Assembly: GCA_947561585.1 (NCBI GenBank)
Contig: CANNZV010000332.1
Coordinates: 310,001-374,000 of the forward strand
Reading direction: 5' to 3'
DNA length: 64,000 nucleotides
DNA from: Caprella mutica
Taxonomy: Eukaryota > Arthropoda > Malacostraca > Amphipoda > Caprellidae
Part shown: in pieces, positions 37,001 to 64,000 of the stretch
How positions within the stretch are numbered: the stretch's first letter is position 1
Layout: every line of letters begins with the position of its first letter
Translations under genes and position numbers: made by a program
Notes under the pieces: generated by a model
What the model was told of the DNA's origin: nothing
The model's database searches: none
Seen by the model: the letters and a program-made list of their open reading frames with translations, nothing else

Positions 37001-38883
37001 TGGAAGAATATAAAGTTTTGCCATTAGATTTTTAGAAAAATACTTACTTGAATGAATATTTAATTGACCGAATTTCAATGTTTTGAATATTTAATTATTT
37101 ATGGTGCACGCAACCTTATTATTTAATTCATAGCATCAATTCATATAAATTTATTTCCTAATTATACATGGTAGCTATCATCAGCTTTTTAAGTAGTCAG
37201 TTAACGCTGCTCATTGTCCTGCTATTCATTTGTTTCATCATTCAGGTTGCTGAGGGTACAGGACTCGCTTTCATCGTGTTCACACAAGCCATCGTTGAGT
37301 TACCAGGTAGTAACTTCTGGTCAGTGAGTTTCTTCCTCATGTTGCTGGCTTTGGGTCTGGGCTCACAGTTCGGTACCATGGAAGGAGTCATCACTAACCT
37401 CTTCGACATGAGCGTTTTTGCTAGGGTTAGAAAAGAAGTACTTACTGGTGAGTTTATTACTAATCTGACCAAATTATCATTCAAGTTCCCTCTTTCGTTT
37501 GAAATCCTATAACGTTTGCATGTTTTATCATTTAATGGTCATAGAATAAAATAACATATAGCTATTGTTTTAAAAAGAGTCAAAGACCTTCCCAACAAAA
37601 TTTAAATATAATTTTTTTTTCACGTCGTGCTACTCGTATTTCTTCAGGTTGCGTATGCCTAGTTTCCATGCTCATTGGCCTCGTTTTCTGCACGGGGGCT
37701 GGTGAATACTGGCTCACACTCTTCGACACATTCGCTGGCTCTATGGGACTTATTTTCATTGCTCTTTTCGAGAGTTTGGTCATGGCCTATGTCTACGGTC
37801 ACAAGAGATTCTCAGATGACATTGAGAAGATGATAGGTACTTTTCAAATACCATATATATAATATAAACTAAGGCTTACAGCAAAATAAAGCATTGATAT
37901 TTATTGGAATGTTGTTTAAACTAAGAAAAAATATTTATACGTTAAATATGAAATATTTTCTGGTATTTTAGGAGAAAGACCAGGTTTGTACTGGCAGGCG
38001 ACCTGGCGGTTCATCTGTCCCATCACAATCTTCACCATCATCGTGTCCTCCACTATCTACAGATTCATTGAACCTTCCGACTACCCTGCCTACAAACGAG
38101 AATTGGTGTGTAGATTATTATTATTCATTTCCGAAGAAAAATTAGATTTAACATACATGTGCATCAACAGAAATAATAATTATGAACGCATAATATATTA
38201 AATCACAAGTAGAAGCTGAACAATCAATAGCTACTACTATTGATACATTTATCTAATATCCTAGATAACTTAAAAGAACCACGATAAACTAGAATGATTT
38301 TTTTAGAATTAACTCATGAAATGATCATTATATTTTCTCAGGGTATATCCGTTGATGAGGCGTACCCACCCTGGGCAATGTTCGTGTCCTTTGCCCTGTT
38401 GTGTGGAGGCATTCTTCCCATACCCATTGTATACTTAATGCGCCGCTTCCAGTGCATCAGACTAGACTCAGACATCCACCAGGCTTCCATAAAGAGGGTG
38501 GAGACAACCATGTCTACTCAGGGCATGATAAGGGGTGAAGAGGTCAGTGGTGTCCTTTATATTGACTTGCATGGTGCAAAAATATAACTTTGTATACCCA
38601 ACATGAACATTAGGTACCGATATATAATATATACATAAGAAAAATACATAATAAGATGTCTATATTAGTATGAAGATTTTCGTCCATTCACGTCTCCATA
38701 GAATATTAACAAACTTACTTTCAATATCATTTAGACTCACCAACAGTCATTAGAAGGTAGTTTGCGTATTTGTTTAGTAACTTGTCTGTACCACCCCAGT
38801 TGCCCCCAAGTGACACCTCTGACAGTGAATGGACGAATCTCTTCTCGAATAGAGTTAACTCGAGCTCTAGTCTCGATTTCTAG
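9754..38883 (+). CDS. SLC6 family Na+/Cl- dependent transporter, SLC6A15/A17/A18-like (whole gene span)
   Basis: Plasma-membrane symporter of the neurotransmitter/amino-acid transporter family. Phase-consistent exons: 9754-10012, 32033-32134, 32265-32395, 32594-32738, 35750-35838, 36150-36260, 36342-36583, 36768-36948, 37246-37447, 37648-37836, 37972-38105, 38342-38542 and last exon 38800-38883, giving about 689 residues, a normal family length. TM1 has the NVWRFPYL signature and the GGGAFLIPY run; KGIQSSGK before TM5 and the large loop after TM7 fit the SLC6A15-type branch better than monoamine or GABA transporters. Potential N-glycosylation sites (NET, NVT, NIT, NMT) lie in the two big external loops. 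Substrate is inferred (neutral amino acids or orphan). A second candidate 3' exon lies at 41819. Intron 1 is 22 kb. The first in-frame ATG is 9754, behind an in-frame stop at 9730. Subfamily call is from memory of family motifs, without alignment. Confidence 0.93.
10097..10273. mobile_element. GGGTAAGTTC-family palindromic MITE, copy 2
   Basis: GAATTATCGAATAGTTCCAC in the left arm pairs with GACCGATAATTCATATCTTA at the right, followed by CCCT. The left arm carries a small insertion or duplication. It lies 85 nt inside SLC6 intron 1. Confidence 0.65.
11083..11222. repeat. 22-bp minisatellite
   Basis: Six copies of TACTGTGTATACTGTATAGA plus two bases, unit ends nearly identical. Confidence 0.92.
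12242..12690. mobile_element. Foldback built of ACACCGGTGT-like repeats with 21-bp TIRs
   Basis: TGTTCTCTTATCAGTAAAAA (12342-12362) and its complement (12670-12690) enclose arms of degenerate GGTGTTAACA / ACACCAATGG repeats that switch orientation near 12475. A leading run of the same repeat lies outside the left TIR (12242-12341). Confidence 0.75.
13365..14216. repeat. 45-bp satellite, about 19 copies
   Basis: Tandem unit beginning AGTACAATGATGTCCAAGAC, length 45, with four identical units at the left end and more varied units to the right. Because 45 is a multiple of three, several minus-strand frames stay open for hundreds of codons; that is a by-product, not a gene. Confidence 0.96.
15000..15155. 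repeat. 25-bp minisatellite
   Basis: About six copies based on ACTCGTTCTATTACTCGTTC, the last ones degenerate. Confidence 0.85.
16461..16659. mobile_element. GGGTAAGTTC-family palindromic MITE, copy 3
   Basis: AGGGTGAGTTCCGAATTATC at left; right end complement TGGGTAAATTCCTAGTTATT. Arms of about 90 bp pair almost throughout. Confidence 0.9.
17555..17755. repeat. 17-bp minisatellite TTACCCCATACAAATAG
   Basis: About ten copies with variants such as CATTCACA in place of CATACAAA and shortened units. Confidence 0.88.
18396..18531. repeat. 24-bp minisatellite
   Basis: Six copies of CACCTTTTTAGTCATCTTGA plus TACA. Open in both directions because 24 is a multiple of three; not coding. Confidence 0.93.
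18690..18910 (+). pseudogene. Non-LTR reverse transcriptase remnant C
   Basis: Plus-strand reading contains [20 protein letters not shown] followed 15 residues on by FSDDTIL, matching the [21 protein letters not shown] and YADDT blocks of jockey-like RTs. YADD has become FSDD. About 70 codons only. Confidence 0.75.
19525..19690. repeat. Imperfect palindrome with a 14-bp central stem
   Basis: ATGAACAATAATTC and GAATTATTGTTCAT (19579-19623) form the core; outer ACTGTATAT repeats pair more loosely. Possibly a decayed MITE. Confidence 0.5.
20237..20466. repeat. 30-bp minisatellite
   Basis: Eight nearly identical copies of GAGTATTCATACGATAATTG plus ten bases. Open on both strands by length alone. 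Confidence 0.95.
21270..21436. mobile_element. GGGTAAGTTC-family palindromic MITE, copy 4
   Basis: Left GGGTATGTTTCGAGTTAGCG with CCTGTTCCACA; right CGAAGATGTGGAACTGACTC then ATAATTCGTAACTTTCCCT. The centre has diverged from copies 3 and 5. Confidence 0.8.
23750..24240. repeat. 24/26-bp satellite
   Basis: A homogeneous block (about 23930-24215) of AACCTGTACTAACTGATCCA plus four bases, preceded by a mixed block of 24- and 26-bp variants with CTGACTGATC. Minus-strand openness is due to the 24-bp unit. Confidence 0.95.
24455..24640 (+). pseudogene. Tc1-like transposase fragment (N-terminal DNA-binding region)
   Basis: Reads [34 protein letters not shown], a stop, then [15 protein letters not shown]. 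This follows Tc1-family transposase order: GRPRKLSERDRR, AELN, STKTVRREL of the second helix-turn-helix. One stop; the catalytic region is not found nearby. Confidence 0.8.
25181..25226. repeat. Short hairpin, 16-bp stem
   Basis: AATAGTGAACAAATTT and AAATTTGTTCACTATT around a 14-nt loop, perfectly paired. Confidence 0.85.
25497..25556. repeat. Short hairpin, 15-bp stem
   Basis: AATACCCGTCGTGTG and CACACGACGGGTATT, perfect, with a 30-nt loop. Could be a solo MITE end pair. Confidence 0.85.
26903..27204. mobile_element. 302-bp MITE with ~85-bp TIRs
   Basis: Left arm from CCAATAGACCAGTAAAATAA to TTCGTACGGGGATAA pairs with the right arm from TTATCCCCGTAAGAATATAA to TTTACTGGTTTATTGG at about 80%. 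No ORF. Confidence 0.8.
27342..27549. mobile_element. GGGTAAGTTC-family palindromic MITE, copy 5 (near-perfect hairpin)
   Basis: 208 bp whose two halves are almost exact inverse copies meeting at AACCCGGGTT. Outer block AAGTTCTTAATTATCGGTCA, inner block TGTTATTATTACACAGTG. The youngest-looking member in the window. Confidence 0.95.
27895..28102. mobile_element. 208-bp Tc1/mariner-type MITE with TA duplication
   Basis: Perfect 24-bp ends starting CAGGGTGACCCACAAAAAAG, flanked by TA on each side. TA target and CAGGGTG end are usual for Tc1/mariner-derived MITEs. No transposase. Confidence 0.92.
28550..28717. mobile_element. GGGTAAGTTC-family palindromic MITE, copy 6
   Basis: AGGGTAAATTACGAATTATC at left and complementary AAGTGGAACCGTGCGATAAC then TGTACTTGCCCC at right; more degraded than copy 5. 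Confidence 0.75.
28835..29297. repeat. 32-bp minisatellite, about 14 copies
   Basis: Unit GTACTATCAGAGAAAAGAGT plus CACTGTGATGAT. Two variants, GTGATGAT and GTTATGGT, alternate toward the right end, suggesting a 64-bp higher-order unit. Confidence 0.95.
32033..32134 (+). CDS. SLC6 transporter exon 2: TM2
   Basis: Acceptor TTGCAG, donor GTAAAG. Codes residues 88-121 ([10 protein letters not shown] through [15 protein letters not shown]), the TM2 block that continues the GGG turn of exon 1 across the 22-kb intron. Phase 1 at both ends. Confidence 0.92.
32265..32395 (+). CDS. SLC6 transporter exon 3: TM3
   Basis: Acceptor TTTCAG, donor GTGAGT. Codes residues 122-164, from [16 protein letters not shown] into TM3 with the [10 protein letters not shown] motif; the Tyr pair lies in the substrate-pathway region of SLC6 proteins. 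Ends in phase 0. Confidence 0.92.
32594..32738 (+). CDS. SLC6 transporter exon 4: extracellular loop 2
   Basis: Acceptor TTACAG, donor GTAAGA. Codes residues 165-212, beginning [16 protein letters not shown]. It holds two cysteines in the positions expected for the loop-2 disulphide (VCPNE and EECEM) and NET and NVT sequons. The AYFWFR stretch before TM4 resembles the SLC6A15-type branch. Ends in phase 1. Confidence 0.9.
32739..35749 (+). other. SLC6 intron 4 (3.0 kb)
   Basis: AT-rich with a 27-bp minisatellite (listed separately). A GC-richer patch (about 34610-34850) has no recognised ORF and may be an old element. Nothing coding seen. Confidence 0.7.
33405..33790. repeat. 27-bp minisatellite, about 13 copies
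   Basis: Units of TTAGGTAGTTTTAAATGACT plus ACCCTAG with point variation and short deletions. Confidence 0.93.
35750..35838 (+). CDS. SLC6 transporter exon 5: TM4
   Basis: Acceptor ACCCAG, donor GTAAGG. Codes residues 213-242 ([16 protein letters not shown] through KGIQSSGK). The GIQSSGK segment is highly typical of this branch. Too short to form a long ORF, but phase and splice sites fit both neighbours. Confidence 0.9.
36150..36260 (+). CDS. SLC6 transporter exon 6: TM5
   Basis: Acceptor CTTCAG, donor GTGAGT, phase 0 at both ends. Codes residues 243-279: [20 protein letters not shown] (TM5), then a loop ending HMFTPD. Confidence 0.92.
36342..36583 (+). CDS. SLC6 transporter exon 7: TM6 and TM7
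   Basis: Acceptor TTACAG, donor GTGAGT. Codes residues 280-359, with [20 protein letters not shown] (unwound TM6), ASYN, and the TM7 block ending [15 protein letters not shown]. The Asn in ASYN sits where Na+ is coordinated in the family. Ends in phase 2. Confidence 0.93.
36768..36948 (+). CDS. SLC6 transporter exon 8: extracellular loop 4
   Basis: Acceptor GGGCAG, donor GTAACT. Codes residues 360-420, a long hydrophilic loop with NIT and NMT sequons, ending QLDE just before the TM8 exon. A long loop 4 is characteristic of SLC6A15-A20 type proteins. Phase fits both neighbours. Confidence 0.9.
37246..37447 (+). CDS. SLC6 transporter exon 9: TM8
   Basis: Acceptor TTCAG, donor GTGAGT. Codes residues 421-487: [20 protein letters not shown], then [19 protein letters not shown] (TM8, with the LGLGSQFG Na+-site stretch). 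Ends in phase 1. Confidence 0.93.
37648..37836 (+). CDS. SLC6 transporter exon 10: TM9 and TM10
   Basis: Acceptor CTTCAG, donor GTACTT. Codes residues 488-550, with [34 protein letters not shown] and the conserved cytosolic run [10 protein letters not shown]. Confidence 0.92.
37972..38105 (+). CDS. SLC6 transporter exon 11: TM11
   Basis: Acceptor TTTTAG, donor GTGTGT. Codes residues 551-595: [20 protein letters not shown], continuing through TM11 to YPAYKREL. Ends in phase 0. Confidence 0.9.
38342..38542 (+). CDS. SLC6 transporter exon 12: TM12 and C-terminal tail
   Basis: Acceptor TCTCAG, donor GTCAGT. Codes residues 596-662: [30 protein letters not shown] and a cytosolic tail ending MIRGEE. 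If the donor is not used, reading continues 14 codons to a stop at 38587. Phase 0 at the 3' end, compatible with both candidate last exons. Confidence 0.88.
38800..38883 (+). CDS. SLC6 transporter last exon, form a
   Basis: A pyrimidine-rich tract and CCCCAG acceptor open an in-phase reading of 27 codons ([16 protein letters not shown], then a Ser-rich end LDF) closed by TAG at 38881. The block is GC-richer than its surroundings. Acidic/Ser-rich short tails are usual at SLC6 C-termini. It is the nearer of two candidate last exons. Splicing is inferred. Confidence 0.65.
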   Translation: MPPSDTSDSEWTNLFSNRVNSSSSLDF

Positions 38884-55763: not shown

Positions 55764-56209
55764 TAGTATATAACTATAGGTATTATATTCTACATTATGA
55801 AGATTGAAGCTGTTTTTTTTTTTATATAGAATGGTGATAAGGGGTAGTGTTAATTTTGTATGATCGGGGTTTTAAATTGTTGTTACTTTCATTTATTTGT
55901 TTAATTTCTCTTTCTTTACTTCTTTCCATTTTATTACTTATTTACGGTTGTTAATTAGTTATATTTTTACAAACAGTTACCGAGCGTCACACTAGCCTGA
56001 AGTTAGTTTGTTCAAAATTAGATATCAATTAAATTCTTGTGATTGCCAGGAATTCCTGAATCCACGAGGGTAAATGAAACGATATATTATGATAACTAAA
56101 TTCGTTATTTATAAGATTCATGCATGACATTACACAGATAATTTAATCGAGATATTTATATAATACATTATACAATTGAACATTCAATCTAAACGGTTCT
56201 ATGTATATT

Positions 56210-56285
56210 CCACCCCGGTAATTTCAACTCCGGTATATTCCACCCCAGGCATATTCCACCCCAGGTACATTTTACGCCGGTAACT
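56210..56285. repeat. Short TATTCCACCCC repeats
   Basis: Three copies of TATTCCACCCC followed by CGG or AGG, plus related TTTTACGCCGG and TTTCAACTCCGG words. Confidence 0.6.
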
Positions 56286-57369
56286 TCAATCTCCCTTATT
56301 ATAGGAAAAAATCAGACTATACCGACTTATAGCCAAACACATCCACACTCTTTTAACAATAAATAAGGAAACAGTCAGGCTATATATTCGAGCATTCATC
56401 ACCTCCTCTAACTTGGTTATCGAGACAACCGTACTCTTCCAGCAACACTTTCGACTTTATTGCATGATCATTCAAATTATTGCAGAATATAATCTGATCG
56501 TTCTTTGAATTTTGAAAGAATTATTATAAACAGACAGAAAATCCCAACAAGACTGTAGAACTATATACTTTTTTCCAAGCAGTTATATTTTTGTCCAGTT
56601 ATTCCGTTATTGAAAACTATTACTCTTAAGATTTAAGCACAAGGCTATACGAATGAAACTGCAAGATCAAATCTTTACTATTAAATCAAAAATAAAATTA
56701 ATTTTATGAGGAATCAAGAGTCATATAATCATATTGTTGACAAATTAACTAAAGACTTTAAAAATGTAGTTAGATAATAAAGTGGCTTTTCCAACAAAGT
56801 GTGATAGTGCGCACGTACAATGGAATAGAACATTCTTTAAAGGGTAGGAAGATGAAGAGATGATAATAAATGAAACCTACGAGAGTCTTTAGTCTGTACC
56901 TAAACAAATACTGCACCTTTTAGTTTAATAGCATAACCCGGCCTATTGTAGTAATTACAAATAGCGTTAGATAGCTGATGGGAATAATAAAAAGTTCATT
57001 TTCTTATTTATTTATAATTAAATTCAAACATTCTTATACAAGCAAAATAAAAATTCTGAGCATTTCTCAACAAAAGAAATCAACATTTCAGAAAAGAAAT
57101 AAATGTTAAATAAAAAGAGCACTTAGAATAATTAATATGTAGTAAGTGCATAATACATTATTCTGTGCCTCTCTACAGGAATTCCGAATCAGATTTAAAA
57201 TCTTTGTCCATAGCCCTTAGCCCCATGGTAATTAGAGGTAAGGAATAGGTCGTCATCACTGTCCATCTTAGTGAATATCTATTCGGCTGAACTTACTTTC
57301 TGTGTGAACTCCACAAGACAATTGTTCGTGACTCTTTAAGGAGTATGTTCCGATAATGATATAATAACC

Positions 57370-57726
57370 ATGTCCGATGCTGCAGTATTAATCCAAAGAG
57401 CCACAGAGCGCTTAACCAACTCAATGACGTAGTCTCAGACACCAACCTTCTTCAACAGCGCTAACTTGGCTCTGCATTCCTGAAATGAATAATTATATCA
57501 AACTGACAGGTATGGAATTAGCTGATACCAAATTATTTATGAAATTGCAATGATTTGAACCCATTTAGACAGTGTAAAAATCCAATAACTTTTGTCACAA
57601 AATAAAGTTATTGCTTAAATATAATTAATGTTTAAATACACACCACATCGACGGAATTAGCTTGAAGTCGTTTTTCTTAGTAGACATGTTACCTAGCATG
57701 CAGGCAGGTATAATACCTTTGATCCT
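57370..57726 (-). other. Exon-like scraps on the minus strand
   Basis: Two TTTCAG acceptors (before 57724 and near 57480) open readings DQRYYTCLHA and ECRAKLALLKKVG. Composition is more gene-like than the flanks, but stops follow quickly and no protein is recognised with confidence. Confidence 0.2.
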
Positions 57727-58570
57727 GAAATTTTATGGTTAAAGAATTAAATATTTATATTGAATTAATTAGTAGGGTCACGCAAGTAAATTGCGGCCCT
57801 CTAATTTTTACTAGCGGCGCACTCAAGAGAGTCTAAAATATTCTGAACCGAAGTTACATAAAAATGTTGCATACCTATCAAAAGAAGCCCAGTGCATGCT
57901 ATAATTTATTAATTTAAGTTTTTAACGGGTGTTTTGAAATTATGATGTTTCTGTTGTTAGAAATTTACCTGCTTGACCCTAGACCTAATTCTTTAGTTAT
58001 TTCATTTATCATCATATTGAATTGTATAAGGGGGGGTAAATAGTTTTATCAAATTAATGTAATGTATAGATTGTCAATGACTAACAGATTAAATATTAAG
58101 GCTTATTTAAAGCCATAAGGAAGGTGGCAAAACCGGTAGATCAGAGTGTCACTCTTTTTTCATACGCTACCTATTTAAATAATTTCATTAACCTAGTTTC
58201 TAGAAACTGTTTTAGAATATGAAAGGAAAAATAATACGGCTAATACCTAATACAAATGATAAAACAATTCATTTTGACAAAGTTTCCAAAATTTCCTAAG
58301 AAAATTAGTTATCAAACTTAAAAACTAGAAGTGAAAAGTAATTGGAATACTAAAATATTCAGTATTTTTGTGCTTTATATTTCGCCACAGATTTACGATA
58401 TTTTAACACTCTATTCAGATAAATGGGACTATTTTAAGACGTTTTACATGAATACCATTTGTTGTGGAAATTCTTCGTTTTCGGTAGGAATTACCTATAG
58501 CTTTCAGATAATAGTAATATTTTCCGCCTGTCAGATTATTTTGATCTTAAATCTTGGTGATATGAAACCA

Positions 58571-59839
58571 TTAATGTAGTTTGCTGGTTTCGCTAGTTTG
58601 TTTTACTACACACTTCATGAATATATAATTACCTGACAGGGGGGTTCGGAGTTATATCTGAAAATATACCGCAAATGTACTTTTCCCGACCCCCAAACTT
58701 AACTTCACCTATCGGAAACATAATTTCTCTATTATCTCTAAAACGAAGAGTTTCCAAAACAAATGGTAATAGTGAAAAACGCCTTAAAATGGCTCCTTTT
58801 ACCTTTATAAAGTGTCAAAATGTCTAAAATCAGAGGCGGACCTAAAGCACATATTTAAAAAATATTCCTACATACTACAACTAACCTATATCAACTCATG
58901 GCCTCATAGATAAACTAAACCTAAATCCACAACAAAATCTTAAATTAATTAACTTTGAGAATACACTTACTTTAGTAGCAGAGCTTCTATCAATGAACCA
59001 AACCGGAAGAGACGCACAAATATAATGTTCGCGATTAGTCATGTGTGTCTTGATTTCACCTATAGGTGATACCCAGTGAAAATTTGGTTCTAAATTGGCT
59101 AACTGGCAATGATATCGTACTGAAAAATTAGACAAGTTACCGACACTTTTTTACAGCAAACTTTAACTGGGAATATCTTTCAATGCAGACCTTCAATTCA
59201 AAATCTGTCTGGATAAAACTCTTTATTGACACCCCGTGCACTAAAGTAAGGTCCATAAACGTATCAATGTTATATATTTACAAAGATATTTAAAAAAGAA
59301 TTGGATGGGCTGGTCGTTTATAATATTACTTTAGCCCCAGCCCCAGCCCCCAACACTCTAGCCTTAAACAGAACTTTTCAATGCCTACTGATTCCATAGA
59401 TAAATTATACACATCATGCAAATGCTATTTTTCTCCTTAATGATTTGCTAAATTGATGAAATCTATGATAACAATTCATAGTTTTTAGAGAATAATCTAT
59501 TTGATAAAGTTCACCTGATGGTAGACAAAGGTTCAATAAAAGTAGGACATTTAAAGAGTAATATTGGTCATAATTCATAGCATTGCAATGGTGGCAAGCG
59601 CTTGTGAATTTATTTAATTGTACTAACAATGTATTGTATTTATGTATCTTCCTGAATTAATTGGAAGTTTTTATTATAACTGGGGTCATGTTATTGAACA
59701 GTGAAATATTGAACAGTGTAAAGGTTGCGAGACATGGGAAGCTGTAATGTAGTTTGTTGTATCCGCTAGTTTGTTGTACTGCACACTTCATGATTGTTTA
59801 ATGACCTGGCAGGGGGGTTTGGGGGGCGGCACGCCCCCC
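58571..59839. repeat. Direct repeat pair with a GC-rich hairpin
   Basis: About 76 bp at 58571-58646 and 59742-59820 share TAATGTAGTTTG, CGCTAGTTTGTT, CACACTTCATGA and GACAGGGGGGTT-type words. Just after copy 2 is GGGGGGCGGCACGCCCCCC (59821-59839), a perfect 8-bp stem with a 3-nt loop in otherwise AT-rich DNA. Confidence 0.8.
58971..59119 (-). CDS. Candidate isolated exon (Ig-like?)
   Basis: Between TTTTTCAG and GTAAGT lies an open 149-nt stretch reading YHCQLANLEPNFHW, then REHYICASLPVWFIDR. The C-x(9)-W spacing recalls an immunoglobulin fold strand pair, but that is weak. It may be an exon of an unrecognised minus-strand gene or chance. Confidence 0.22.
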
Positions 59840-60424
59840 GATATACACACAGTTTAATAAATGTTATATCAATAATAAATTGCACTATTAAAGTAACCAC
59901 AACCAAAGGAGTATTTTATTAATAAATAGTAACCCATAGAATGATGTTAAATTACTTTGTTTATAGATTCGATCTCTCATTATCTATCATTATTCAAAAT
60001 GTGTAATTGAAAACTTAACGATTTATATCCATTGAGTTTTTGCTACTTAATGTATTATTTAGCTAGCTGTCGTAATTGAACAAAATAACTTCAGAGTCAC
60101 ATTTCTAAAAATCGAGTGAAAATTGCTTTCAAACAGAGTTATCGCAAGTTTAAGATATTTGAATAAGGAAACCATTCATAATTTTATATGGCTACCACTA
60201 TGTATGAACTGTTTAAAATTAAATGACACTCATAATATAATGTACTTTTTGATGTCAAAACCAGACAATGAATTACAAGAGCTAGAATAAATCAACTCAT
60301 GAATATATGAACAATGGTGAAAGTATTGCGCTCATAGACAGTAACATGTTCTACAAAAGCCATAATAGTGTTACACCAATGTGAATTTTAGGTAAGCAGT
60401 AATCTTCGTACTTAAAGGACCAAC

Positions 60425-60752
60425 ATGGCTAATCTCCGAAAATCAAGATGGGTAATGACCCTCAATAACTATAATGTTGAACGGGATTACAATTCTCATC
60501 TTCGTAATCCTGTTTTCAAAATTAAAAGAGCAGTGATAGGCAAAGAGATTAGCAATGAAGGCACAAGGCATTTGCAGTGTTATGTTGAATTCGATAGGTC
60601 ATATAGGTTGGGGCACTGTCGAAAGATCTTTGGTTTAGCCTTTTGGGACTGTGCCCGTGAAAGTGCTCTGGTGAATTTCCGGTATTTTACTAAAAGTGGG
60701 AACTTTTCCCTTATTGGGGATTTCACCAAAGAGCAGTGCGGAATTGAATCAG
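60425..60752 (+). CDS. rep: Rep-derived gene exon 1: HUH endonuclease domain
   Basis: ATG in a good insect context (CAACATGGC). Carries all three rolling-circle motifs of the endonuclease domain within 110 residues. Donor GTATGT, phase 1. Reading through the donor runs 48 more AT-rich codons with no domain character, supporting the splice. Confidence 0.88.
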
Positions 60753-62852
60753 GTATGTTTTTAATATATAGTCAAATTTATGCTAATATTTACAAAAAGT
60801 TTGTATATAGTGAGTTCCACAAGTACTTTATTCAGAAATTAAATAAACTTGCCTTAAAAATAGAAATAAATATATTGTTTTCCAAATCTTTAATACAATG
60901 ATTTAATTTCCATGCATTACTATGCTTGCTAATTCTAGTGAAAAAAAAACTAGAATTTACAAGCATAATAATGAATAATTATAAACCTTGAATTTATTAA
61001 AAGATAAGGACTACTAAATATATTTCGTATATTTATAACAAGCTTGTTAAATTTTAAAATAGTGTACTTTTTTGTGGGACATACGTACGGTATAATTATG
61101 TAGTTTTTAATTAATACATTTAATTGGTTCTAAATAAAAATTTGACATAGCACAAGTACAAATTTCAGTCTATGGTTTTATTTCTCAGAAAAATATTTGA
61201 TTTCTTTCTGTAAGTTTAAATTTTACAGTGTTTCCAGATGCAGCCAAAGTGTCCATTCCATTGATAGTACAAGGCCTTCTCAATAAAGAAACTGCGACTC
61301 AAACTAAGCTTTATAAGGAATATTTTGAAAAATCGAACTGTTTCGACAAAGTAACTATGAAAATAAAACAGATTCAACAGGATCACAAGCTGTTTTCATT
61401 ATGGTCTCCTAAGTTGTTGAGGCCTTGGCAGTTCGCCTGTATCGAGTTGCTATTTTCCCAAGATGACAGGCAAATACTATGGATTGTGGATACTGTAGGG
61501 AATTTTGGGAAAAGTTTTTTGGCGCAGTATCTATCCATACTTTATGGATACCAACTTGTGGATGGCTCACTTAACTGCAGAGATGCAGCATTTCTAATTT
61601 CAGAGCATTCCAAGGGATTTTGCTTTGACATCTCTCGATGCTCTGTAAATACTTTCGAATATTCAACTTTGGAATGCCTAAAGAATGGTTAGTTAAATTC
61701 TTGACTTGAAAAATGACATCCAACTATATAACCTCAATAATCACCCTTAACATGCGTGTTTATATTTCAGGTGTGATAATGACTGGAAAATATTCTGGGA
61801 GGGTCAAGAGATTCTCAAGTTTGCCCATTGTGGTTTTTTCCAATTCCCGTCCTGTGTACACAGCACTATCTGAGGACAGGTGGAAAGTCCACGTGTTAGG
61901 GAATAATCCTTTTGCAAATATCTCTAACATTGCGACTATTCTTCCATCTCACACCTACCCATTTGTTGCGCCGGAGCCAATGCCTGACCTCTCTGAAAGT
62001 TTCAATTTGCGGGAATTCTTGGAAATGAAGCTACTGCATACTATTGAACCTGAACGTGAGTTTACTCCTTGATATTGTTACATAATACTATTATACCAGA
62101 GAACTAATCTGAATTTGTCTATATAAACATATCAAATTAATATTTTTATTTCAGAACAAGTGCCAACAATTGCTGCTGATGCTGCTGCTTCCGCTGATGA
62201 TGAACATTTGCTTCAGCTTGGGTCACATGATTTGGATGATTTGCCCAGCACAGCTGAGTTCATAAGGAACGCATTGAGGATGGATCCAGTTCAGCAACCA
62301 CAAGCATGTGATCACACCACGAGAGGTAAATATAAAACTAAATTAGAAATCAAATCTCTTATTTGTAATAGTACTTCTATTCTTCTCTTGTATGTAATAA
62401 TTAATGGATTTATTTGAAAGACGCTATAGTTTTTGTTAATATAAAGGTATCGCAATTGTTATTAAAGTGTACAATTATTTAAAGTGTTATTACCTTTTAC
62501 ATCTTCAGCATCATTAATGACGAGAATTTCAAAACCCGCTACTCGAATTGTGAATATTGTAATGGGAGAATTATACACGATTTATGAAAGACCAGAAGTT
62601 GTTGCCGAAATAGAATCCTCACAACATTCAGAGACGATGACTTCTGGTGGCTCATCTTCAGCAAAGTATGCACTGTCTTTCAGTAATCTAAAATCACTAA
62701 GTCTTCCTCCCTTCAAACCATCAAGATCAAAGAGAACTGTCAAACCTGTATCAGAATCGGATCTTTTTGACGATTCAGATTTTGACGATTCCTTCTTCGA
62801 CTCTGTTTTTTTGGGCACTTCATTTGGAAAGAAGAAAGTGAAAAGGTCTTAA
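60425..62852 (+). CDS. rep: Spliced, apparently intact CRESS-DNA Rep-derived gene (HUH endonuclease + SF3 helicase + novel tail)
   Basis: Five phase-consistent exons: 60425-60752, 61229-61687, 61771-62055, 62155-62325, 62509-62852, about 528 codons and no stop or frameshift. The encoded protein begins with a rolling-circle endonuclease: motif I WVMTLNNY (residues 9-16), motif II HLQ (49-51), motif III YFTK with candidate nucleophile Tyr87 and Lys90. It continues with an SF3 helicase: Walker A GNFGKS (200-205), Walker B FCFDIS (Asp243), motif C VVFSN (Asn287), and SEDR with candidate Arg finger 299. Viral Reps are typically about 280-320 residues; here roughly 200 more follow, Ala/Asp-rich then Ser-rich, acidic and ending in a basic run. 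The RxILWxxD and FDISR flavour recalls nanovirid/alphasatellite or unclassified CRESS Reps (weak inference). Introns and the open frame argue for a host gene of viral origin rather than a free virus or fresh insertion. Host function is unknown. Confidence 0.88.
60914..60974. repeat. Stem-loop in Rep gene intron 1
   Basis: CATTACTATGCTTGCTAATT and the complementary CTAGAATTTACAAGCATAAT enclose an A-rich loop of about 10 nt; the imperfect stem is around 25 bp. It lies 160 nt after the first exon. Confidence 0.7.
61062..61081. mobile_element. Solo end of the CAGGGTGACC MITE in Rep intron 1
   Basis: TAGTGTACTTTTTTGTGGGA matches the inner-to-outer right end of the 27895 MITE; the last bases (CACCCTG) are lost and no left end is seen. 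Confidence 0.6.
61229..61687 (+). CDS. rep: Rep-derived gene exon 2: linker and helicase Walker A/B
   Basis: Acceptor TTACAG, donor GTTAGT. Codes residues 110-262: a linker, a LRPWQ block typical of the start of the CRESS helicase, the Walker A loop GNFGKS and the Walker B strand ending FDISR. The key Lys and Asp are present. Confidence 0.88.
61771..62055 (+). CDS. rep: Rep-derived gene exon 3: helicase motif C and arginine finger
   Basis: Acceptor TTTCAG, donor GTGAGT. Codes residues 263-357, with VVFSNSRP (motif C Asn) and LSEDRWKVHVLG, matching the conserved end of CRESS helicase domains, then a Pro-rich transition into the extra tail. Confidence 0.87.
62155..62325 (+). CDS. rep: Rep-derived gene exon 4: Ala/Asp-rich linker
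   Basis: Acceptor TTTCAG, donor GTAAAT, phase 1 on both sides. About 57 residues, starting with an Ala/Asp run (ADAAASADDEH), then an acidic/Leu region. Not recognised in viral Reps; perhaps a disordered linker. Confidence 0.75.
62509..62852 (+). CDS. rep: Rep-derived gene exon 5: Ser-rich acidic tail with basic end
   Basis: Acceptor TCTTCAG; TAA at 62850-62852. About 114 residues: a short hydrophobic part, a Ser-rich stretch, an acidic Asp/Phe repeat (LFDDSDFDDSFFDS) and a terminal KKKVKR run that could act as a nuclear localisation signal. No homology recognised. Confidence 0.75.
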
Positions 62853-63009: not shown

Positions 63010-63396
63010 GGCTTCAGTACTGACTGAAGAATTAATTTAGATTGGAAATTGTCAAGCTATAGTAATGCATGTGAAACAGAAAAAACTAGGTAAATGGTCA
63101 GGCTTCAGTACTGACTGAAGAATTAATATAGAATGGAAATTGTCAAGCTATAGTAATGCATGTGAAACGGAAAACTAGGTAAATGGTCAGGCTTCAGTAC
63201 TGACTGAAGAATTAATTTAGATTGAAAATTGTCAAGCTATAGTAATGCATGTGCAACAGAAAAAACTAGGTAAATGGTCAGGCTTCAGTACTGACTAAAG
63301 AATTAATTTAGGATGGAAAATGTACAGCTATAGTCATGCATATGAAAAAGATAGAAAAACTAGGTAAATTGTCTGGCTTCAGTACTGACTGAAGAA
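63010..63396 (+). repeat. 91-bp direct repeats with an internal hairpin, downstream of the Rep gene
   Basis: Four full units and the start of a fifth begin at about 63010, 63101, 63191, 63281 and 63374. Each opens with CTTCAGTACTGACTGAAG (7-bp stem, ACTG loop; one copy has a point change) and includes AGCTATAGTAATGCATGTG. The array begins 157 nt after the Rep stop. Confidence 0.9.
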
Positions 63397-64000
63397 TTTG
63401 AATATTATATTTAACAATGTTGAACAAAATACTGTTAAACATTTTAATCAGTCACCCTGAACAACTGTCTTAATCTGACCAAAGTAGAACTCCTTTATAG
63501 TGAACTCCAACAGATGAATAGAAAACTGGCCTTTTCATGAGAGACTACAATAAATAGTTACTTTTTTAAAAATCTATTCATTAATCATTATACAGGGTAT
63601 CAGGGTGGTTCACTACATATGCCTTTGTTACAGATGTTATAAGTTGTAATGGTAGAATTCATAGAAAACTCATTGCCATTTACGGCGGACTAAAGTAAAT
63701 ATGTTCACTACAGAGGTTAGTTCATACTAAAGGCTCGACTAATCAGGTTGGTTCACTAAATAGGAATTCATTTCTGAGGATGAGTTAGGCTTAGCATTAT
63801 TTTTTTCCTTTTGCACATCTATATATATGTCTGTTCCAATTGATTTTATTGTAACCAACAGTTTAAAATAAATTTCTTAAAAAATAATTAATTTATAATT
63901 CTAAACTATTTTGAGAATTCACGAAGCTATAGTAAGTGATTCAACAATGGAATTTGTCAGACTAATGGCAAGACGGGAAAAATATTTTTTCCAAGCCGAC

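Follow-up and report, generated by a model that had tools for sequence, protein, structure and literature searches.

A CRESS-type Rep gene in the amphipod Caprella mutica lies in a multi-copy mobile element that may work like an integrating plasmid

Arthropod Reps present in many copies and a truffle transposon with a Rep (PMC3198968), bacterial integrated plasmids of the circular Rep-encoding single-stranded (CRESS) DNA type (PMC6668415) and Cryptons (PMC3212892) are already in print. In this work, we describe a CRESS-type Rep gene of Caprella mutica (GenBank assembly GCA_947561585.1), located in a 64,000-nt stretch of contig CANNZV010000332.1 (positions 310,001 to 374,000 of the forward strand) which is called the window below. 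The gene sits in a delimited mobile element of 7.75 kb, which begins at 56279 and has its right end at about 64031, some 31 bp past the window. We consider it likely that this Rep belongs to a eukaryotic mobile element working like an integrating plasmid, the circle of which would be moved by a tyrosine recombinase (YR) and copied by Rep. On balance we also favour, with somewhat less assurance, a distinct superfamily of animal transposons, in which integrating replicons would combine a YR, a CRESS-type Rep and a TAATATTAC origin, forming the eukaryotic counterpart of the bacterial integrated CRESS plasmids, and in which Rep-bearing derivatives devoid of the YR would spread in trans.

The bacterial plasmids (pCRESS) share with this element a virus-like nuclease-helicase Rep, site-specific integration and direct-repeat bounds, and no known viral structural genes are reported in them (PMC6668415). 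Their layout (CRESS Rep, integrase and direct repeats) recurs in the sister families of our element, where the integrase is a predicted one, whereas the window copy has no integrase; in contrast to pCRESS, the present element occupies an animal genome, has introns and many copies, and is loose in its target choice. Cryptons resemble it in the YR (predicted here), the lack of terminal inverted repeats (TIRs), a short direct repeat at both ends and a proposed circular intermediate (PMC3212892). The 4- or 6-bp end repeat of Cryptons has a parallel in a GGTAA core of about 5 bp, but Cryptons carry the YR only, while the YR predicted in this work comes with a CRESS Rep and an origin-like site. Moreover, the Crypton YR is of the DUF3504 type with the catalytic residues R, K, H, R, H and Y, whereas the YR predicted here gave no Pfam match, DUF3504 included, up to E 10, and the window copy encodes no YR.

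CRESS-DNA viruses and endogenous Reps have the same Rep endonuclease and helicase motifs (PMC3198968) but differ from our element, which has introns, a YR partner, transposon ends and many near-identical genomic copies. The geminivirus-like transposon of Tuber melanosporum also places a Rep-like gene in a multi-copy eukaryotic transposon; however, it has 37-bp terminal inverted repeats, transposase open reading frames (ORFs) and an interrupted Rep (PMC3198968), whereas here the Rep frames are open, a YR is predicted and inverted repeats are lacking. Helitrons are alike in being eukaryotic elements with an HUH enzyme. They use two tyrosines and a superfamily 1 (SF1) helicase, have 5' TC and 3' CTRR ends and insert into AT targets. 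The present Rep has one catalytic tyrosine and the element ends read GGTAAC... and ...GGGTAA, unlike those of Helitrons. PMC3212892 presents Helitrons as unique among eukaryotic transposons in having a rolling-circle initiator. Searches of one open-access library, which does not cover subscription papers, preprints or Repbase, showed no eukaryotic element that pairs a YR with a CRESS Rep.

The Rep gene is read on the plus strand in five exons (60425-60752, 61229-61687, 61771-62055, 62155-62325 and 62509-62852), 1587 nt in total with a stop at the end. Its four introns are all of the GT...AG type, its junctions are all in phase 1, and no internal stop occurs in the exons, which were read apart and never joined. 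These data agree with the preliminary description of this DNA, which had claimed five in-phase exons with GT-AG borders and no stop, and they uphold its view of a complete, intron-split Rep that is not contamination. Its label of an insect-type genome, on the other hand, finds no support in these analyses. Splicing is predicted, with one support for it given by a metagenome relative, P0001 (79% identical), which stops at the same exon-2 border.

Exon 1 encodes the HUH endonuclease: it matches PF02407 (Viral_Rep) over the cut-off (E 4.1e-10) and, weakly, six solved viral Rep sequences in the PDB (best E 2.4e-4), and it contains motifs I (RWVMTLNN), II (HLQCY) and III (Tyr87 and Lys90 in YFTK). 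Motif III has one Tyr only and is YCTK in the sister families, the HUH motifs being kept in families 2-4 (the window copy belongs to family 1). The helicase part begins in exon 2, assigned by its frame, genome matches and the motifs of relatives, with Walker A (GNFGKS) and Walker B (FDIS), and extends into exon 3 with motif C (VVFSN) and the arginine finger (LSEDRW). These superfamily 3 (SF3)-type motifs were read by eye, and like motifs are present in the fetched Rep relatives, including the hermit-crab-associated circular virus. Exon 4 is a tail recognised by its frame, as is exon 5, an acidic tail with a basic KKKVKRS stretch at its end. Of the full set of motifs announced earlier, the three rolling-circle motifs lie in an exon with a profile match and the SF3 motifs were seen by eye: exons 2-5 have no Pfam match, exon 2 has no PDB sequence match, and PF00910 searched in the Caprella genome gave none. 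A PHROGs search returned weak chance-level rows only, and no scanned phage record contained exon 2.

Among the 11 Rep relatives, the sole named animal protein is that of the amphipod Hyalella azteca (45%), and the Rep of the giant hermit crab associated circular virus (33%) is also present, a hint, though no proof, of a crustacean host. The comparison with viral Reps suggested earlier was made in Rep trees; in the helicase tree, families 1-3 cluster with two metagenome proteins and the viral rows stand on long branches, so that the source virus is not placed.

The borders of the element are common to other loci. The left one, at 56279, is found in C2183, C74, C5136, C3355 and C6321 (92-100% identity over about 1.7 kb), and the right one, at 64031-64036, in C74, C5136, C2183, C6321, C1274 and C587. 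Beyond these borders the printed flanks (six left, seven right) look unrelated, and therefore the copies arose by separate insertions rather than being alleles. Over 7,659 bp, the C74 copy and the window element are 99.7% identical. All six left ends read GGTAACTTCAATC from the border inwards, while the seven right ends finish with AGAAGGGTAA in the window copy (C332), C74, C5136, C2183 and C6321 and with slight differences in C1274 and C587. The element thus starts with GGTAAC (56279-56284, plus strand, the same in six loci) and ends with GGGTAA, and no terminal inverted repeat was seen at its ends. Such ends, lacking TIRs and sharing the short GGTAA core, would be as expected from YR integration. 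The window copy is inserted at a minisatellite flank (56203-56278, with the tandem repeat at 56203-56271), a like unit of which resumes to the right of the element: the resemblance of the unit CCGGTAATTTCAACTCCGGTATATTCC to the right flank GGTAAATTCAACTCCAGTATATTCC suggests that this repeat may have been the original target. One family-1 copy, C5136:9106-29888, has its ends about 20.8 kb apart, with extra DNA between the matches to window positions 58000 and 59074.

The 903-Mb genome was searched with exon 2 (best 150 of 240 candidates scored) and with PF02407 (best 150 of 195). Exon 2 occurs in at least 150 places, with 132 of the 150 listed matches free of stops (counted from the table); PF02407 likewise occurs in at least 150, all those listed being over the curated cut-off and 145 having no stop. 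Merging the two lists gives at least 180 Rep loci on 165 contigs. Among the exon-2 matches listed, identity to the query is 97-100% in seven (the window's own included), 88% in the eighth and 32-77% in the rest. Family 2, whose exon 2 is about 58% identical, forms a sharply bounded element that is about 11.3 kb long and carries both the Rep and the predicted YR. The Rep is open in all five exons, with no stop or gap, in C74, C2183 and C6321, and has stops and gaps in C5136, C1233, C1274 and C587. The window Rep is, in summary, a member of a large, recently active family of animal mobile elements. Some exon-2 matches fall in very long open frames (C5260:10863-11189, 3763 aa; C3888:47697-48131, 1526 aa; C1233:79774-80208, 847 aa), perhaps derived from in-frame tandem repeats like those in the family-2 Rep tail.

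Such abundance could also stem from exogenous CRESS viruses that integrated separately many times, or from an endogenous virus still making particles. The many diverse Rep families and the distant relationship to a crustacean-associated CRESS virus Rep (33%) are in line with this explanation, and the multi-copy Reps of the salmon louse (59) and of Varroa (56) have been attributed in part to duplication and in part to repeated integration (PMC3198968). However, the introns, the fixed ends and a 7.7-11.3 kb structure common to the copies do not fit it, and for family 1 the intron-bearing 7.75-kb unit speaks against it; in addition, narrow pattern scans of viral contigs gave no confirmed relative (4 exon-2, 2 YR and 18 Rep-alignment stretches matched the pattern). 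We therefore regard this explanation as very unlikely, noting that viral integration could still be the first route by which the Rep arrived.

The Rep protein sequence is kept under constraint between families, as judged from exons 1-2 only: pN (the proportion of non-synonymous differences) is 0.28-0.31 for families 2 and 3 and 0.36-0.47 for family 4, against a pS (synonymous) of 0.82-0.95, which is near saturation. Within family 1, the dN/dS ratio proposed earlier as a check was calculated on genome copies against the window copy, and it is 0.14-0.38 in C5136, C2183, C6321, C1274 and C587, 0.63 in C1233 and undefined in C74 (0 synonymous and 2 non-synonymous changes), all of these resting on small counts with four of the seven copies broken.

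The same data bear on the opinion that the Rep is an old viral insertion that gained introns and was kept as a domesticated host gene. The intact frame, the spliceosomal-type introns and the purifying pattern are in its favour, and the constraint put forward in the preliminary description holds; the single old domesticated gene does not, given at least 150 Rep matches and a 7.75-kb mobile element. For the window copy such a gene is contradicted by the copy number, the mobile borders and the near-identical copies at unrelated sites, and we give the domestication of a viral gene scarcely any credence. Since the Rep is multi-copy, has mobile borders and is joined by a YR in sister families, its constraint is as well or better explained by selection acting on the mobile element.

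The introns were probably gained inside the element lineage. Families 1-3 match up to the same end of exon 2 (LECLKN and alike) whereas family 4 continues in frame beyond it, and in loci such as C32 the endonuclease and helicase matches lie within one frame of 403 aa; it is from this read-through and the single frame that the gain is deduced.

The partner gene is best seen in family 2. Its element has an intron-split Rep on the plus strand, and the minus strand encodes a protein that bears zinc-finger-like motifs and resembles tyrosine recombinases in its C-terminal part; this frame is open over 989 aa in copy C143 and lies in more than one frame in copy C1192. Family 3 has the same divergent layout. 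In family 2, in-frame tandem repeats of coding units occur near the ends of both the YR and the Rep genes. Genome searches with two YR proteins (best 80 of 600 and best 110 of 474 candidates scored) merged into 130 loci, and in 68 of these a Rep lies in divergent orientation no more than 15 kb away (median gap 4,402 bp), compared with 0.78 expected by chance. The first list alone gave 46 pairs among 80 loci versus 0.48 expected, and in 3 of the 130 the Rep is present only in another arrangement.

The window copy has lost its YR and keeps an intact Rep. Queries from family 2, family 3 and C1233 detected no YR between the left end and the Rep except a decayed remnant of the N-terminal part with stops (57216-57497, minus strand; tblastn with the C1233 open frame, 54% identity, E 2.5e-23), the query frame itself matching YR N-termini (E 4e-12). 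In C1233 the YR lies 4.4 kb from that copy's Rep, in divergent orientation.

The multiplication of family-1 copies without a YR could indicate that Rep itself is the transposase, acting by a Helitron-like peel-and-paste with the YR as a mere passenger or resolvase, and HUH Reps can indeed drive rolling-circle transposition, as in Helitrons. Nevertheless, the GGTAA core at both ends, the absence of an AT target and of Helitron-type ends, the one catalytic Tyr and the SF3-type helicase all point away from this possibility, which we find highly improbable.

In some loci, the genes are repeated. In C18, two YR and two Rep genes alternate, with 11,984 bp from Rep to Rep and 12,379 bp from YR to YR, and repeated YRs occur in C3324 and C3943. 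Tandem copies of this kind fit the insertion of a circle at an existing junction or rolling-circle concatemers, and plain duplication would also do. In C18:406399-426227, C3324:53225-64781 and C3943:11223-37888, neighbouring YR and/or Rep genes have the same orientation and are 10-20 kb apart, in a head-to-tail-like order.

An origin-like site is conserved upstream of the Rep. CRESS origins have a nonanucleotide in a stem-loop, and TAATATTAC, at which the DNA of geminiviruses and other CRESS viruses is nicked, lies in the window at 59321-59329 (plus strand), beginning 1,104 bp ahead of the first Rep exon and placed between GGGCTGG and CCAGCCC, within a site spanning 59307-59349. It is found upstream of Rep in families 1, 2 and 3, and was not seen in the upstream stretch read for family 4. 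When the upstream DNA is aligned locally, TAATATTAC falls in register between families 1 and 3 (score 132 versus a maximum of 64 in 200 shuffles) and between families 2 and 3 (143 versus 98), the alignment being marginal for families 1 and 4 (54 versus 53). The family-3 form, GGCTGGNCNNTNTAATATTAC, has 9 exact matches in the genome, all upstream of Rep loci: 8 belong to loci whose Rep or YR places them in family 3, and the ninth (C1553) precedes a Rep exon of the same strand by 7.6 kb. Its distance to Rep is 1.33-1.39 kb in 7 of the 9 matches and 9.7 kb in C231. The window form has one extra base between the motifs and is outside these 9, and matches with two mismatches are no more frequent than in the reversed control (88 versus 117 in all).

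The conserved origin is relevant to the possibility that a Crypton-like YR transposon took up a viral Rep for some other purpose, such as regulation or virus blocking, and is moved by the YR alone with no rolling-circle copying. YR-type ends would be enough for this movement, and 59 of the 130 listed YR loci have no Rep among the Rep matches listed. Against it are the Rep catalytic motifs kept across deep divergence, the conservation of a viral-type origin sequence together with Rep and the retention of Rep by copies devoid of the YR, and hence we hold this possibility to be unlikely.

The integrating-plasmid reading accounts for these data as follows. A complete member would have two divergent genes: the left one encodes a YR whose N-terminal part bears zinc-finger-like motifs, the right one a Rep of the CRESS type, in which an HUH endonuclease is joined to an SF3-type helicase, and a TAATATTAC origin lies in the stretch that separates the two. 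The YR would recombine the GGTAA-type cores of both ends, releasing a double-stranded circle; Rep would nick TAATATTAC, so that the circle is copied by rolling circle; and the YR would insert the circle at another short core, a reaction suggested by the observed ends and core. The window copy would be a derivative lacking the YR that was multiplied with its Rep intact, presumably via the YR of its relatives.

Several observations weigh against this reading, beginning with the YR loci free of a listed Rep. The paired loci are related copies spanning several families, not 68 independent events, and most family-1 copies lack a nearby YR, only one of eight checked (C1233) having one within 25 kb of exon 2 among the YR matches listed. 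The identity of the second gene as a YR is supported but not proven, by signals that are weak but consistent: its model folds match Cre and Xer, at low model confidence (pLDDT 60); R, K, R and H of the family-2 protein align with XerD (P 0.0059, with a probability of only 6%), and the His of its HxxR motif is replaced. No Pfam or NCBIfam match was obtained, nor DUF3504 up to E 10, by filters that can miss distant relatives, and the profile run against PDB sequences gave three rows at E 0.28-0.6, with no recombinase among them. The fold-match rows listed include no Crypton or DIRS structures, which carries no evidential weight. As to the origin, the upstream alignment of families 1 and 2 alone fails (64, with 1 of 200 shuffles as high and a maximum of 75), copy C587 has no TAATATTAC in the stretch read, and this sequence is common by chance (4 in the 64-kb window versus 3.2 expected). 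The hairpin at the site is weak (z -1.17, energy unremarkable), and no perfect hairpin with a stem of at least 10 bp and 40% GC occurs in the five stretches scanned. Finally, circles, nicking, strand exchange and splicing are steps that we infer from sequence.

Other features of the element include a miniature inverted-repeat transposable element (MITE)-like repeat at 59744-59847, which is not part of the core. Copies 88-95% identical to it occur at other places in families 2 and 3, and a related sequence is present outside the element. The MITE-like family is represented at 58572-58649, 59744-59847 and, on the extended contig, 65009-65083, with copies in and out of elements. A subterminal tandem repeat with a 91-bp unit was revealed by a tandem repeat scan at 63010-63398 (plus strand). 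Neither the window element nor one family-2 copy shows a further long ORF, no capsid-directed search having been made. The window as a whole is rich in minisatellites (50 rows from Tandem Repeats Finder, some of which overlap) and has an open frame at 37162-37512 resembling, by eye, an exon of an SLC6-type transporter.

If the proposed reading is true, this animal genome holds integrating, self-copying circles that are midway between CRESS viruses, plasmids and transposons, representing a eukaryotic transposon type in which a YR and a rolling-circle Rep are united. Selection on an intact endogenous Rep is then no proof of domestication by the host, and elements of this kind could explain the dozens of “endogenous viral” Reps in some arthropod genomes. 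They would also offer a route between capsid-less elements and single-stranded DNA viruses in eukaryotes.
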